Assembly: GCA_003022945.1 (NCBI GenBank)
Contig: PXRZ01000078.1
Location: 1 to 33,157 of the forward strand
DNA length: 33,157 nucleotides
Direction: 5' to 3'
From: Halobacteriales archaeon QS_8_69_73
GTDB lineage: Archaea > Halobacteriota > Halobacteria > Halobacteriales > Haloarculaceae
Part shown: piece by piece, positions 15,592-26,868 of the stretch
Layout of the letters: every line of letters begins with the position of its first letter
Position numbering within the stretch: the first letter of the stretch is position 1
Notes under the pieces: generated by a model
Database searches by the model: none
The model's input: the letters and a program-made list of their open reading frames with translations, nothing else
What the model was told of the DNA's origin: nothing
Made by a program: the position numbers and the translations under genes

Positions 15592-15691
15592 TCCGCGAGC
15601 GCGCAGCAGGCGCGCGAGCGGTTTGGTTCGAGAGACGCCAGAGGCGTCTCTCGTCATCACGAAAGACGACTTGTGGTCGTCTTTCGAACGA
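15592..15691 (+). repeat. structured multi-hairpin element, copy A
   Basis: The core 15624-15691 reads TGGTTCGA, hairpin 1 (CGAGAGACGCC-AGA-GGCGTCTCTCG, 15629-15653), linker TCGTCATCACGA (15651-15662), hairpin 2 (CGAAAGACGAC-TTGTG-GTCGTCTTTCG, 15660-15686), TCGAACGA. Both stems are perfect 11-bp stems, and GTTCGA/TCGAAC form an outer inverted repeat. A third hairpin (GCGCGC-AGCAG-GCGCGC) lies just upstream at 15599-15615. The same linkers with different stem sequences occur at 25830-25895 inside gltB. I know of no named family for it; it behaves like a REP/MITE-type structured element. Confidence 0.75.
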
Positions 15692-15693
15692 CA

Positions 15694-15854
15694 CCGGCGG
15701 CGAGTGAACGAAGTGAGCGAGCCGCCGGCTTTTTTCATTGACGTTCGGAAGACGCTCCGCGTCTTCCGCAGCCCATCAGAAGCGCAAAGCGCTTCTGAGG
15801 ACGCTTTTTGACTGGGGTCGAGTCGGCGCGCGGAGCGCGCCGGCGAGGCCCCAG
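15694..15854. repeat. array of perfect hairpins before the second halocyanin
   Basis: Four hairpins follow one another. CCGGCGGC...GCCGCCGG (15694-15728) encloses the GAGTGAACGAAGTGAGCGA type repeat and ends in six T's, so it is terminator-like. CGGAAGACGC-TCC-GCGTCTTCCG is at 15746-15768. TCAGAAGCGC-AAA-GCGCTTCTGA is at 15776-15798, followed by a T5 run. A two-level structure, CTGGGG...CCCCAG enclosing CGGCGCGC-GGA-GCGCGCCG, spans 15812-15854. With the terminator, tandem repeat and copy A, this fills the 617-nt gap between the M42 gene and the halocyanin; I see no gene in it. Confidence 0.6.
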
Positions 15855-22093: not shown

Positions 22094-25000
22094 TCAGTCG
22101 TCGCTGGCGACGCCGCCGCCGGCGTCGGAGCCGGGCGACGGCGTCGCGCCCGGCGGCGGCGAGGTCCGGACGTCGGCCGACTCCCGCTCGGCGATGACCT
22201 CGGCGTAGGCGTCGGGCATCACCTTCACCATGTCGTCCAGCGCCGCCTCCCAGTCGTCGAGAACGGCGGCGCCGCGGTCGGAGTCGGTGTAGGCGACGTG
22301 GTTCTCCACCAGCCGGCGGAGCAGGCGGCGATCCTTGGCCTCCAGCTCGTCGGTCGTCGACACCATGCCGTGGTTGACCCGCTTTTCGAAGTCGCCCTCG
22401 CGGTCGAGGACATAGGCGATTCCGCCGGACATGCCGGCGGCGAAGTTCTTGCCCGTCCCGCCCAGACAGACGACGGCGCCGCCGGTCATGTACTCACAGC
22501 CGTGGTCACCGACGGACTCGACGACCGCCCGGACGCCGGAGTTGCGGACCGCGAACCGCTCGCCGGCCTTGCCGTTGATGTAGGCCTCGCCCTGGGTGGC
22601 GCCGTACAGCGCGACGTTGCCGACGAGGATGTTCTCCTCGGGCTCGTAGGGGGCGTCGTTCGGCGTGTTGCAGATGAGCCTGCCGCCGGACAGCCCCTTG
22701 CCGACGTAGTCGTTCGCGGTGCCGGTCAGCTGCATCGTCACGCCGTCCTGCAGGAAGGCGCCGAAGCTCTGGCCGGCGGTGCCGCCGAAGTCGACCCGGA
22801 TGGTGTCGTCCGGCAGCCCCTCGGTGCCGTACGCCCGGGAGATGCGGTTCGACAGCGTGGCGCCGACCGCGCGGTCGACGTTGGAGATCTCGCGGTCGAG
22901 GTGGACCGGCTCGCCGCGCTCGATGGCGGCCTCGGCGTCGTCGATGAGCCCCCAGTCCAGCGATTCGTCGATCTCGTGGGTCTGCGGTTCGGTCTTTCGG
23001 CGTCCGTCGCCGGCCGGCTCCGCCAGTACCGCCGAGAGGTCCAGCTTCCGGGCCTTCTCCTGGTCGACGTCCTCGCGCTGTTTCAGCGCGTCGACGCGGC
23101 CGACCATCTCGTCGACCGAGGTGAAGCCCAGCTCGGCCATGATCTCCCGCAGCTCCTGGGCGATGAACGTCATGTAGTTGATGACGTGCTGTGGTTCGCC
23201 GGGGAACCGGTCGCGGAGCCCCTCGTCCTGGGTGGCGACGCCGACCGGGCAGGTGTTCTGGTGGCACTGCCGGGCCATCACGCAACCGGAGGTGACGAGC
23301 GAGGCGGTGCCGAAGACGTACTCCTCGGCGCCCAGGAGTGCGGCGACGGCGACATCATGGCCGGTCTTCAGCCCGCCGTCGACGGTCATCTTGATGCGGG
23401 AGCGCAGCTCCGTCGACCGGAGCATCTGGTTGGCCTCCGCCACGCCGAGTTCCCACGGCAGGCCGGCGTTTTTGATGGACGTCTTCGGCGAGGCGCCGGT
23501 CCCGCCGGAGTGGCCGGAGATGTGGACCACGTCGGCGTTGGCCTTGGCGACGCCGGCGGCGATGGTGCCGATACCGGCCTCCGACACCAGCTTCACGTTG
23601 ATGTCGGCCTCGGGGTTCGCGGCCTTCAGATCGTGGATGAGCTGTTTGAGGTCCTCGATCGAGTAGATGTCGTGCAGCGGCGGCGGCGAGATGAGCCCCA
23701 CCCCGGGCGTCGAGTAGCGGACGTGGGCGATCATCTCGTTGACCTTCTCGCCGGGCAGGTGGCCGCCCTCGCCGGGCTTCGACCCCTGGGCCATCTTGAT
23801 CTGCAGCGAGTCGGCGTTGGTGAGATACGTCGAGGTGACGCCAAAACGCCCGGAGGCGATCTGCTTGACGTTGCACTCCTTTTCGGTGTCGAACCGCTCC
23901 GGCGGCTCGCCGCCCTCGCCGGTGCCGGACTTTCCCCCGAGTCGGTTCATCGCGATGGCATTGTTCTCGTGGGCCTCCGGCGACAGCGAGCCGAGACTCA
24001 TCGACGCGGTGACGAACCGCTCGACGACGGACTCGACGGGCTCGACCGCCTCGAGATCGACCGGGTCGCGGTCGGAGTCGAACGCCAGCAGCCCGCGGAG
24101 CGTCTGGAGCCGCTCGCTTTGGTCGTTCATCAGCTCGGCGAACTCACGGTACTGGCCGTAGTCGCCCTCCCGGACGGCCTTCTGGAGGGCGCCGACCGAC
24201 TCGGGGTTCCACTCGTGGACCATCCCCGACGACCGGTGTTCGTACTCGCCCTGGTGTTCGAGCTCGGGGTCGTCGCCGAACGCCACCTCGTAGCGCCGCC
24301 GCAGGTCGTCTCCGACGTCGTCGACGTCGATGCCCTCGGTACGGGCGGTCGTCCCCTCGAAGTACTCGGCGACGAACCCCGAGTCCAGCCCCACGGCCTC
24401 GAAGATCTGTGCGCCCTGGTAGGACTCGACGGTCGAGATGCCCATCTTCGCCATCGTCTTCAGCAGGCCGTCCTCGACGGCGTGGATGTACGCCTCGACG
24501 GCCGCCGCCTCGTCGGCGCCGTCCGGCCCGGCCACGAGGTCGGCGATGGACTCGTAGGCGAGGTAGGGGTTGACCGCGCCGGCGCCGTAGCCGATGCAGG
24601 TGGCGACGTGGTGGACCGTCCGGGGGTCGGCCGACTCGACGACGAGCCCGACCCGATTCCGGAGCCCGTTGCGGACGAGATGGTGGTGGACGCCGCCGGT
24701 CGCCAGGAGTACGGGGATGGGGACGGCGTCGGCACCGGCGTCGCGGTCGGAGAGGACGATGATGTCGTGCTCGCGGGCGGCCTCGGTAGCCTCCCGGCGG
24801 ACCGCCTCGACGGCCGCCTCCAGGTCGTCGTCCGGGTCGAAGGTAGTGTCGAGCACGTACGACGACAGCCCGCCGTCGGCCTCGGACCCGTCCAGCCGCC
24901 GGATCGCGGCCGTTTCGGCGTCCCGCAGCACCGGCGAGTCGACGACCAGCTGGCGGGCGTGGGCAGGCGACTCCCCGAGCAGGTTGCGCTGGTTGCCGAG

Positions 25001-26737
25001 CCGGGACTCCAGCGACGTCACCAGCTCCTCGCGGATGTAGTCCAGCGGCGGGTTCGTCACCTGGGCGAACAGCTGCTTGAAGTACGAAAACAGCGGGCGG
25101 TTGAACTGCGACAGCACGCTGAGCGGCGTGTCGTCGCCCATCGAGCCGACGGGGTCCTTCCCGTCGCGGGCCATCGGCTCGATGAGGTGATCCAACTCGT
25201 CGTGGGTGTAGCCGTACAGCGCCTGCCGGGCACGGAGGTCGCGCCCGTCGCCGGCCGGCGTCGCGTCGTCGTCGGCGACGTCGTCGAGACGGACCTGCTC
25301 GTCGTCGACCCACTCGGCGTACCGCTCGTCGATCAGCTCCTCGAAGATCTCGTCGTCCGGTACGACGCGACCCGCCTCGGGGTCGGCGAGGAACAGCTGG
25401 CCGGGCTGGAGCCGGTCGCGGCGCTCGATGTCGCCGAAGTCGGGCTCGAGGGCGCCGGCCTCGCTGGCCATGATGAGGCGGTTGTCGGTCGTCACGTCGT
25501 ACCGGCAGGGCCGCAGGCCGTTGCGGTCCAGCACCGCGCCGACGCGGTCGCCGTCCGTGGCGGCGACCAGCGCCGGCCCGTCCCACGGTTCGACAAGGGA
25601 GGCGTGGTAGTCGTACCACTCGCGGCGCTTCTCGGAGACGCGGTTGGCCTCGCCGCGCCAGGCCTCGGGAATCAGCATCCGGAGGGCGTGCGGCAGGTCG
25701 CGGCCGCCCTGCATCAACAGTTCGAGGGCGTTGTCGACGCTTGCGGTGTCGGACTGCTCGGGGTCGTTGATGATCGGCCGGAGGGTGTCGATGTCTCCTC
25801 GCGGGCGCTGCCCGCTCGAATCCGAGGAGTGGTTCGAAGATGGCCGCTGGCCACCTTCGTCATCACGAGAGACGGCGTCGCCGTCTCTCGAACGATATCC
25901 CTCCTCGCCGCCGTCGCCGAGGGCCGGATGCGCGAGGTCGCTCTCGCGGGCCCGCATCCAGTTGATGTTCCCCTGGATGGTGTTGAACTCGCCGTTGTGG
26001 ATGATCCTGCGGTACGGGTGCGCGAGGTGCCACGCCCCCAGCGTGTTCGTCGAGAAGCGGGCGTGGACCATCGCGAACGTCGAACGCAGCCGGTCGTCGG
26101 TCAGGTCGGGGTAGTACGCCGGCAGCTGCTCGGCGGTGAGCAGCCCTTTGTAGATGACGGTATCACGGTCCAACGAGCAGACGTAGAACCGGCCGTAGCC
26201 GTCGGGCTGGCGCTCCTCGACGGTCGTCTCCAGGTCCCGGCGGGCGACGTACAGCGCCCGATCGAAGTCCTCGGCGCCGGCCGGTCGGATAAAAGGCTGG
26301 ACGACGAGCGGTTCCGAGTCGAGCGCGGTCCGGCCGAGCGAGCCGTCGTCCGTCGGTACCTCCCGCCAGGCGAAGACGTCGAGATCGTGGTCGGCCAGCA
26401 CCGCCTCGGTGAGGTCCTGCAGGCCGGCGGCGGCCTCGCGGTCCTGCGGCATGAACATCGAGCCGACGGCGTAGGCGCCGCGGGCCGGCAGGTCCTCGAC
26501 CTCGTCGGCGAAGAACTCGTGGGGCGTCTGCAGTAAGATACCGGCGCCGTCGCCGGTGTCCGGGTCGGCGCCGGTCGTGCCGCGGTGTTCGAGGTTCGCC
26601 AGCAGCTCGAGCCCGTCGGCGACCGGTCGGTTCGTCCGACCGCCGTCGAGGTCCATCACCACGCCGACCCCACAGCTGGCGCGTGCGTCGTCCGGATCCG
26701 CGAGCCCGACGTTACTCGCGGCTGATTGCTTTCTCAT
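22094..26737 (-). CDS. gltB: glutamate synthase large subunit, with an in-frame repeat-element insert
   Basis: A 1547-aa enzyme that makes two glutamates from glutamine and 2-oxoglutarate. The N-terminal glutaminase domain has the nucleophile Cys22 (ASCGVGVVMDLDGG) and LEHRGTTGADPDTGDGAG; the mature protein should begin at that Cys. A central domain follows, then the FMN/3Fe-4S synthase domain from about residue 860, with GKSGTGEGGEP, AQGSKPGEGGHLPG, SGHSGGTGASP and the cluster loop CVMARQCHQNTCPVG. The C-terminal GXGXG beta-helix starts at about 1290. Residues about 280-318 (GGEEGYRSRDGDAVSRDDEG and on to RPRG) interrupt the otherwise conserved HPALGD-DIDTLRPI run; they are encoded by structured element copy B (25795-25895). 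The start is ATG 26737 rather than an earlier in-frame codon. No small subunit is adjacent, so reductant may come from ferredoxin. Confidence 0.95.
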   Translation of the reverse strand: MRKQSAASNVGLADPDDARASCGVGVVMDLDGGRTNRPVADGLELLANLEHRGTTGADPDTGDGAGILLQTPHEFFADEVEDLPARGAYAVGSMFMPQDREAAAGLQDLTEAVLADHDLDVFAWREVPTDDGSLGRTALDSEPLVVQPFIRPAGAEDFDRALYVARRDLETTVEERQPDGYGRFYVCSLDRDTVIYKGLLTAEQLPAYYPDLTDDRLRSTFAMVHARFSTNTLGAWHLAHPYRRIIHNGEFNTIQGNINWMRARESDLAHPALGDGGEEGYRSRDGDAVSRDDEGGQRPSSNHSSDSSGQRPRGDIDTLRPIINDPEQSDTASVDNALELLMQGGRDLPHALRMLIPEAWRGEANRVSEKRREWYDYHASLVEPWDGPALVAATDGDRVGAVLDRNGLRPCRYDVTTDNRLIMASEAGALEPDFGDIERRDRLQPGQLFLADPEAGRVVPDDEIFEELIDERYAEWVDDEQVRLDDVADDDATPAGDGRDLRARQALYGYTHDELDHLIEPMARDGKDPVGSMGDDTPLSVLSQFNRPLFSYFKQLFAQVTNPPLDYIREELVTSLESRLGNQRNLLGESPAHARQLVVDSPVLRDAETAAIRRLDGSEADGGLSSYVLDTTFDPDDDLEAAVEAVRREATEAAREHDIIVLSDRDAGADAVPIPVLLATGGVHHHLVRNGLRNRVGLVVESADPRTVHHVATCIGYGAGAVNPYLAYESIADLVAGPDGADEAAAVEAYIHAVEDGLLKTMAKMGISTVESYQGAQIFEAVGLDSGFVAEYFEGTTARTEGIDVDDVGDDLRRRYEVAFGDDPELEHQGEYEHRSSGMVHEWNPESVGALQKAVREGDYGQYREFAELMNDQSERLQTLRGLLAFDSDRDPVDLEAVEPVESVVERFVTASMSLGSLSPEAHENNAIAMNRLGGKSGTGEGGEPPERFDTEKECNVKQIASGRFGVTSTYLTNADSLQIKMAQGSKPGEGGHLPGEKVNEMIAHVRYSTPGVGLISPPPLHDIYSIEDLKQLIHDLKAANPEADINVKLVSEAGIGTIAAGVAKANADVVHISGHSGGTGASPKTSIKNAGLPWELGVAEANQMLRSTELRSRIKMTVDGGLKTGHDVAVAALLGAEEYVFGTASLVTSGCVMARQCHQNTCPVGVATQDEGLRDRFPGEPQHVINYMTFIAQELREIMAELGFTSVDEMVGRVDALKQREDVDQEKARKLDLSAVLAEPAGDGRRKTEPQTHEIDESLDWGLIDDAEAAIERGEPVHLDREISNVDRAVGATLSNRISRAYGTEGLPDDTIRVDFGGTAGQSFGAFLQDGVTMQLTGTANDYVGKGLSGGRLICNTPNDAPYEPEENILVGNVALYGATQGEAYINGKAGERFAVRNSGVRAVVESVGDHGCEYMTGGAVVCLGGTGKNFAAGMSGGIAYVLDREGDFEKRVNHGMVSTTDELEAKDRRLLRRLVENHVAYTDSDRGAAVLDDWEAALDDMVKVMPDAYAEVIAERESADVRTSPPPGATPSPGSDAGGGVASDD
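25795..25895 (+). repeat. structured multi-hairpin element, copy B, inside gltB
   Basis: The core 25830-25895 reads TGGTTCGA, hairpin 1 (CGAAGATGGCC-GCT-GGCCACCTTCG, one mismatched pair, 25835-25859), linker TCGTCATCACGA (25857-25868), hairpin 2 (CGAGAGACGGC-GTC-GCCGTCTCTCG, 25866-25890), TCGAACGA. Upstream, CTCCTCG (25795-25801) and CGAGGAG (25823-25829) enclose CGGGC-GCT-GCCCG. The linkers are identical to copy A at 15624-15691, but the stem sequences differ and pairing is kept. It is antisense to gltB and adds about 35-39 codons in frame. Confidence 0.75.
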
Positions 26738-26868
26738 ATTACTATGTGGTGAATACCCGAATAAGAGACTTCCCCTCAAACACTAACGGGTGGTTTACCC
26801 CATACAAGGTCGTATAAGGTATACCAAGAAAGGGCGACCGATCGAGACCGGCACCGGCGCCGGTCCCG

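Follow-up and report, generated by a model that had tools for sequence, protein, structure and literature searches.

What manner of entity keeps its joints constant while the stems between them change? The question is raised by two short stretches of the DNA analysed here (33,157 nucleotides, hereafter the window), which share three short motifs exactly, in the same order and orientation, around hairpins of differing sequence; an earlier note on this DNA had reported the pair, and it is present motif for motif and position for position. In its general form the unit comprises ~54-68 nt and two hairpins (hp1 and hp2), each a stem and loop opening with CGA and closing with TCG; the hairpins are joined by the linker TCATCA and bounded by TGGTT on the left and AACGA on the right. 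The two halves constitute a near-symmetrical inverted pair, with ends (TGGTT/AACGA) of 5 nt carrying one mismatch.

Copy A occupies 15624..15691 on the forward strand (68 nt; 61.9 bits under a covariance model), with hp1 at 15629..15653 (11 bp, loop AGA), the linker at 15654..15659 and hp2 at 15660..15686 (11 bp, 5-nt loop). Copy B lies on the same strand at 25830..25895 (66 nt; 54.1 bits), with hp1 at 25835..25859 and hp2 at 25866..25890. The claim that the stems keep pairing was borne out by DNA folding: the two 11-bp hairpins of copy A amount to 22 pairs, and copy B has one A.C mismatch in hp1 and a full 11 bp in hp2. Folding z-scores were -7.0 (forward strand) and -7.8 (reverse strand) for copy A and -4.8 and -5.8 for copy B, none of 200 shuffles equalling the native sequence in any case. 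Either strand of both copies folds as DNA into the two hairpins alone.

The unit is not confined to the window. A strict pattern gave 11 matches in the window's own assembly (76% complete), as against none for a reversed control, and was matched in 10 of 20 genomes of the genus, where the control again gave none. Of 292 genomes in the class Halobacteria, 157 gave a match, the largest number of copies in one genome being 21 and the control giving none; 59 of 77 genera were represented. A sample of the phylum yielded matches in 14 of the 19 genomes belonging to the window's order and in none of the 101 others. Because strict matches alone were counted, the class-wide and phylum-sample figures are lower bounds. 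The covariance model R1 matches 18 of the 20 genus genomes; it scores both strands of the near-palindrome, and other hairpin modules besides (124 matches in the window's own assembly), and therefore no copy number is drawn from it. Further copies amount to at least 119 stretches among the matches listed. When plasmid records were searched for distant DNA similarity to copy A, 10 matched, all haloarchaeal, and in none of the 10 did an annotated gene lie under the match, the gene table being incomplete. Plasmid PL131 of Natronomonas pharaonis bears a copy. Viral contigs held no strict match, copy A with its flanks matched nothing among phage records, and the 15 hairpins of at least 7 bp in the Haloquadratum plasmid PL47 included no adjacent pair. 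The earlier note had proposed a search of genomes with a covariance model, and had staked its reading on there being further copies and on stems that covary: many further copies were found, and the stems covary (see below). Our data support the existence of a haloarchaeal element, dispersed and structured, that resembles REPs in architecture, conserves its linkers and changes its stems in a compensatory way.

Evidence that this element is mobile comes firstly from sites that lack it. In a relative (G010) the sequence GCGAGCGGTT|CACCGGCGG runs uninterrupted at the point where the window holds 15624-15691 (L017 versus L286). The target (15619..15696 including the insertion) comprises the halves of a small palindrome, CGGTT (15619-15623) and CACCG (15692-15696), which adjoin each other in the relative, where nothing is inserted. 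The span first listed for the finding, 15592-15691, includes flanking DNA before 15624, as the empty site makes plain. The genes on either side of copy A encode an M42-type peptidase and a copper protein of plastocyanin/azurin type. Some 55 nt past it, at 15746-15798, is another double hairpin, unlike the first (CGGAAGACGC/GCGTCTTCCG and TCAGAAGCGC/GCGCTTCTGA, with linker GCAGCCCA), which is absent from the counterpart in G010.

A search for further empty sites, an 8-base spacing test, covered the fetched loci, using flank anchors 4 bases from the ends and allowing one mismatch per anchor. For 22 of 212 copies (33 of 68 hits) there was an uninterrupted partner at the exact spacing of a clean empty site; every other spacing was represented by four copies at most. 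Partners at precisely the predicted spacing imply that there was no target duplication and no deletion at those sites. Many or most of the 22 counterparts are repeated carrier DNA, and are thus homologous empty sites rather than clearly orthologous ones; the clear cases of a filled and an empty site are copy A and gltB. Copy A, moreover, shares ~117 bp – its flanks and hp1 included – with another locus of its own genome (L019), and the two may therefore be a single insertion copied along with its host. Among 77 copies with nonredundant flanks the preceding base is G in 92% and the following base C in 92%, with C at the fourth base after the unit in 73% and G at the fifth in 79%. Copy A is an exception in being preceded by T, and the C that follows it belongs to the target. 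The target bases are commonly CG|CNNCG, found adjacent elsewhere without the unit, and 74 of 214 copies share one common carrier context, CG|CA(G/A)CG.

The second clear case is copy B, which lies within a coding gene. gltB, encoding the large subunit of glutamate synthase (22094..26779, reverse strand; 1561 aa), remains open throughout an insertion at 25796..25912 (117 nt, 39 codons), delimited by locus comparison, fold and register, that comprises carrier hairpins with copy B nested inside. The carrier consists of a hairpin CGGGC/GCCCG followed by a stem CGAGGAG/CTCCTCG, and it is in the second of these, at register 0/5, that copy B sits, on the strand opposite to gltB. An anchored comparison of all 18 genus loci found 117 extra bases in the window's own genome, 111 (37 codons) in G010 and none in the 16 others (L201-L216). 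The GATase_2 domain match is accordingly split in two with the frame preserved, the better stretch ending at residue 289, precisely where the insertion starts. An in-frame insertion of 39 codons in glutamate synthase means that such units can also alter proteins.

That copy B is nested in a hairpin has parallels elsewhere. Among the 77 copies, stems of at least 5 bp across the target occur in 7 with a left skip of 0 and a right skip of 5 (0.4 expected), and in 8 with skips of 3 and 8 (0.2 expected); these registers, which account for 14 different copies, share a diagonal and were selected from 81 that had been scanned. In a set of 174 copies, stems of at least 7 bp span the target in 20, as against 5.5 expected. 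A perfect stem across the target is absent from most copies; a minority, however, are demonstrably within hairpins of other repeats, as at GCGGGAG|CTTCGCTCCCGC. One host palindrome, CCTCGGGGTCAAG|CCCCGAGG, is recurrent: 11 of 214 strict copies, and more among those found by the model, are placed at its CAAG|CCC. L020 has a relative of this palindrome, lacking the unit, at the 3' end of a tnpB frame, and on account of that position we take the palindrome for an IS605-type right end.

The nesting also runs the other way. Further hairpin modules are found inside the linker of the unit itself, both at an orthologous place in G010 and the window's own genome (L285/L016) and at L119. Likewise L369 (own genome) and L340 (G010) have the same carrier and the same two hairpins, and L369 holds within its linker a further two-hairpin module of ~50 nt. 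A search by a strict definition of interrupted units (gaps below 4 kb, in the loci fetched up to that point) gave 2, compared with 100 full units; both proved to be filled by further hairpins, and the idea that an autonomous form carries a gene where the linker would be was rejected. Further altered linkers exist outside that strict definition.

Several other arrangements of unit and host were seen. A palindromic repeat of ~180 nt (GGGACTCAAAGGGGC.../...GGGGCTTTGG) holds the unit near its tip in L057, L085, L096, L113 and similar loci, and in L123 and L145 the unit is apparently reversed relative to the carrier repeat when compared with other copies. The outer arms around the unit resemble a tRNA T-arm in L160 (AATCGAACC / GGTTCGATT) and are TTTGAAC / TTCAAA-like in L056 and L077; tRNA genes are present in L077 and L160.

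Could the unit have been spread by its hosts alone? In one genome (G005) all four strict copies lie within elements of ~355 bp that are 98-99% identical and have unrelated flanks. These copies are most simply passengers of the elements, which may themselves be PATE-like. If this were general, the unit would have no transposition of its own: palindromic repeats, PATE/IS605-like or other, would carry it, ectopic gene conversion would pass it from carrier to carrier, and the shared context of the 74 copies, together with the flanks common to copy A and L019, would find a ready explanation. The unit is nonetheless found in unrelated hosts that have uninterrupted counterparts, and we consider passenger-only spread an unlikely account of its distribution.

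An improbable alternative is that the unit is a true REPIN, moved in trans by a Y1 (RAYT-type) transposase. The resemblance is considerable: both are miniature non-autonomous DNAs in which two inverted palindromes with short tags form hairpins, as is evident here from near-symmetry and fold, and the conserved outer tags, dispersed copies and lack of target duplication are in keeping. Compensatory changes have been described in REPIN spacers too (PMC3116915). The tags of the unit, however, are TGGTT/TCGTT and not GTAG, and it is the palindromes that vary and the central linker that is fixed. Y1_Tnp (PF01797) has no match in G010, which carries 12 strict copies (88% complete), nor in G022 and G023, which carry 2 and 5 and are both 99% complete; an association with RAYTs is thus unsupported. 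The main text of one account of REP dimers (PMC3733652) contains no word beginning 'halo'.

Covarying stems are usually read as a strong sign of functional RNA, and covariation of the stems is pronounced. In an alignment of 26 gapless units (of 57), ten pairs change on both sides, in 55 cells, a figure reached by none of 500 shuffles; 98% of cells pair, and the covariation score is 0.249, slid controls reaching no more than 0.100. Of the five measures of covariation one was unexceptional, there being 14 further pair types compared with 12.7, a value reached by 107 of 500 shuffles. Over 188 distinct copies, once hairpins with less than 70% Watson-Crick pairs had been excluded, there were 2295 Watson-Crick stem pairs and 56 departures, the latter comprising 15 G.T, 23 A.C and 18 others.

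A structured RNA – a regulatory element or small RNA whose fold is selected – would account for the covariation and for the conserved single-stranded linker and ends, and a three-way junction can be drawn; several lines of evidence nevertheless render it very improbable. Were an RNA selected for its fold, G.U should outnumber A.C on one strand, and no such excess exists (15 versus 23; binomial p 0.26). The loops occur in either orientation. In hp1 they are GAA (48), TTC (21), GGA (21) and TCC (20), and in hp2 TTC (43), TCC (23), GAA (19) and GGA (14), a reversal of sense predicted by the near two-fold symmetry of the unit. They are moreover inverted in place, within unchanged stems, at the homologous-flank loci L129/L147/L168, and the hp2 loop is AAA in L016 and TTT in its G010 counterpart. 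Of 64 comparisons of hairpins at homologous flanks – some of them duplicates (L067, L121 and a double reading in L145) – 19 were the same, 4 inverted and 41 different; the four inversions, spread over three loci, imply no fewer than two events, to which L016/G010 adds a third. The TGGTT/AACGA pairs, which would close the junction, are invariant in alignment A1 through selection and construction, and neither support nor refute a closing stem. A copy lies within a coding gene, gltB, and at the gathering score Rfam recognises nothing in the window and only four tRNAs in 16 loci. The earlier note had supposed that selection or a copying mechanism acts on a folded form of DNA or RNA: the compensatory stems uphold the fold, and the RNA half of the proposal is unsupported. 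The covariation probably reflects upkeep of palindromes at the level of DNA rather than RNA function, and covariation that has no G.U bias and is accompanied by in-place inversion of loops is a caution for covariation-based RNA discovery.

It is scarcely credible that IS605-type TnpB elements include the unit as a constant component, be it omegaRNA or right end. Some copies, strict and model-found, do occupy CAAG|CCC, and the related palindrome lies at the 3' end of tnpB in L020; that host palindrome, however, also exists without the unit (L020, L161), and tnpB, present in 20 of 21 genomes, was encountered in the DNA fetched around just 8 of 152 copies. The tnpB search used a home-made profile from 9 tnpB frames and loci of ~2.3-8 kb, and in 6 of the 8 the copy overlaps the matching tnpB frame, taken from stop to stop; a TnpB/omegaRNA origin as a rule was rejected, copies in other contexts largely refuting it. 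An associated transposase or RAYT-like gene, which the earlier note had suggested seeking, was as a rule not found, and no helper candidate is left standing among Y1 and tnpB.

The reading that we prefer, and consider likely from the sequence comparisons, places the unit among non-autonomous mobile DNAs of minimal build: near-symmetrical, inverted, REP-like halves, each with its hairpin, meet at TCATCA, and TGGTT and AACGA form the outer ends. It is supported by the empty sites, the absence of extra bases at 16 of 18 gltB loci, the hairpin targets, the nesting, the passengers, the covariation, the inverted loops and the unlike stems. Against it stands the fact that no enzyme is linked to the unit. 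So too do the cases in which, between homologous flanks, one hairpin is wholly different and the adjacent one identical or almost identical (L125/L157/L165/L166, and L004/L005, both of the window's own genome): these require many steps or the exchange of cassettes, and count against an account based on mobility and hairpin repair.

How might such a DNA move, and how might its stems stay perfect? What is recognised would be the hairpins as two separate structures, in DNA that is single-stranded or cruciform, and a helper enzyme encoded elsewhere may cut them. Where a hairpin is extruded, one arm can serve as template for the other, as is known for quasi-palindromes in bacteria and phage. Template switching or repair of this kind across the hairpin could keep the stems perfect and also invert the loops; arm copying is the simplest mechanism that both repairs mismatches and inverts loops. 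The variable 5' arm is strongly A-rich, with 734 A-T pairs as against 31 T-A in the 188 copies, whereas other hairpins in the fetched loci have 766 A and 635 T. Hairpin repair alone does not explain this bias, and the purine-rich start of the arm points to an additional constraint.

A further feature concerns the relation of the two hairpins to one another. The first five stem bases of hp1 and hp2 are equal in none of 188 distinct pairs, where 25.5 would be expected, and none of 2000 permutations gave a count as low; since the copies are related by descent this result is no probability, yet the gap is large. Unlike stems may be favoured because equal ones could pair with each other, be deleted or recombine away. 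Most GTAG and CGTC REP dimer families likewise prefer unlike partners (PMC3733652), and the authors of the REPIN work, in a supplementary legend, regard a clover fold rather than a long hairpin as the form likely to be recognised (PMC3116915). By analogy, the double-hairpin unit seems built to permit only the clover fold. Variant copies found by model R1, with TCGTT ends and the fully palindromic linker TGATCA (L342, L355, L372-L375, L377 and L387), look as if the right half had been joined to its own inverted copy, which suggests that the half TCA-hairpin-AACGA may be the basic module.

The nearest known system in behaviour is SMR-A, the type A small mobile repeats of Haloquadratum walsbyi (HqIRS42, HqIRS43, HqIRS55), elements of ~110 bp with prominent terminal inverted repeats that target mainly the near-terminal palindromes of PATEs and IS605-type elements, that commonly exceed 95% identity within a type, and whose movement is described as enigmatic (PMC3119063). 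Like SMR-A, the unit is transposase-free, dispersed and enigmatic in its mobilisation, can occupy PATE/IS605-type palindromes, and inserts with no target duplication (the 22 of 212 copies, and copy A). It differs in its length of ~54-68 nt and its imperfect 5-nt ends, and in within-type identity, its stems varying widely in one genome (the four copies of G005 are identical). The host preference is shared in part: copies at CAAG|CCC are a minority, the hosts being mostly others, and the IS605-type identity of that palindrome comes from L020. Given the misfit of length and identity and the partial host preference, we have not filed the unit under SMR-A, the comparison being one of descriptions. 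PATEs (palindrome-associated transposable elements), for their part, have near-terminal palindromes and are related to IS605-type transposons (PMC3119063); the unit sits inside such palindromes, and some copies probably ride PATE-like elements.

The nearest look-alikes are the double-hairpin elements of mitochondria. These were reportedly first described by Paquin and colleagues. In fungal mitochondria they consist of adjacent hairpins, are mostly intergenic with some in genes, and are thought to be mobile (PMC10085805). Two adjacent hairpins, dispersal and signs of mobility are common to both, but the elements belong to another domain of life and another genome, and are likened here by description. 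Literature searches, mostly of sources other than subscription journals, found no earlier report of the double-hairpin unit, and its 12-base linker was unmatched. We rate the unit as belonging with the miniature palindromic mobile DNA of prokaryotes.

More tentatively, and with appreciable doubt, it is possible that Halobacteria host a whole guild of nested, transposase-less double-hairpin modules that would share hairpin-targeted insertion, DNA-level copying that keeps the arms palindromic, and movement by an undescribed enzyme that reads hairpins where the DNA is single-stranded or cruciform. Were this so, modules would insert precisely at each other's hairpins, at IS605-type ends and even, in frame, into proteins. 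Its exact ends, exact target and wide spread open the movement of SMR-type repeats to direct testing in haloarchaea that can be cultivated. Hairpin pairs of other kinds, with short recurrent linkers (TGCCA/TGGCA, GCCA, TGCAA and others), are numerous in the 119 loci L050-L168, in which close hairpin pairs number 189, compared with 3 after shuffling in three-base blocks; the loci were chosen for the double-hairpin unit, whose linker accounts for 93 of the 189.
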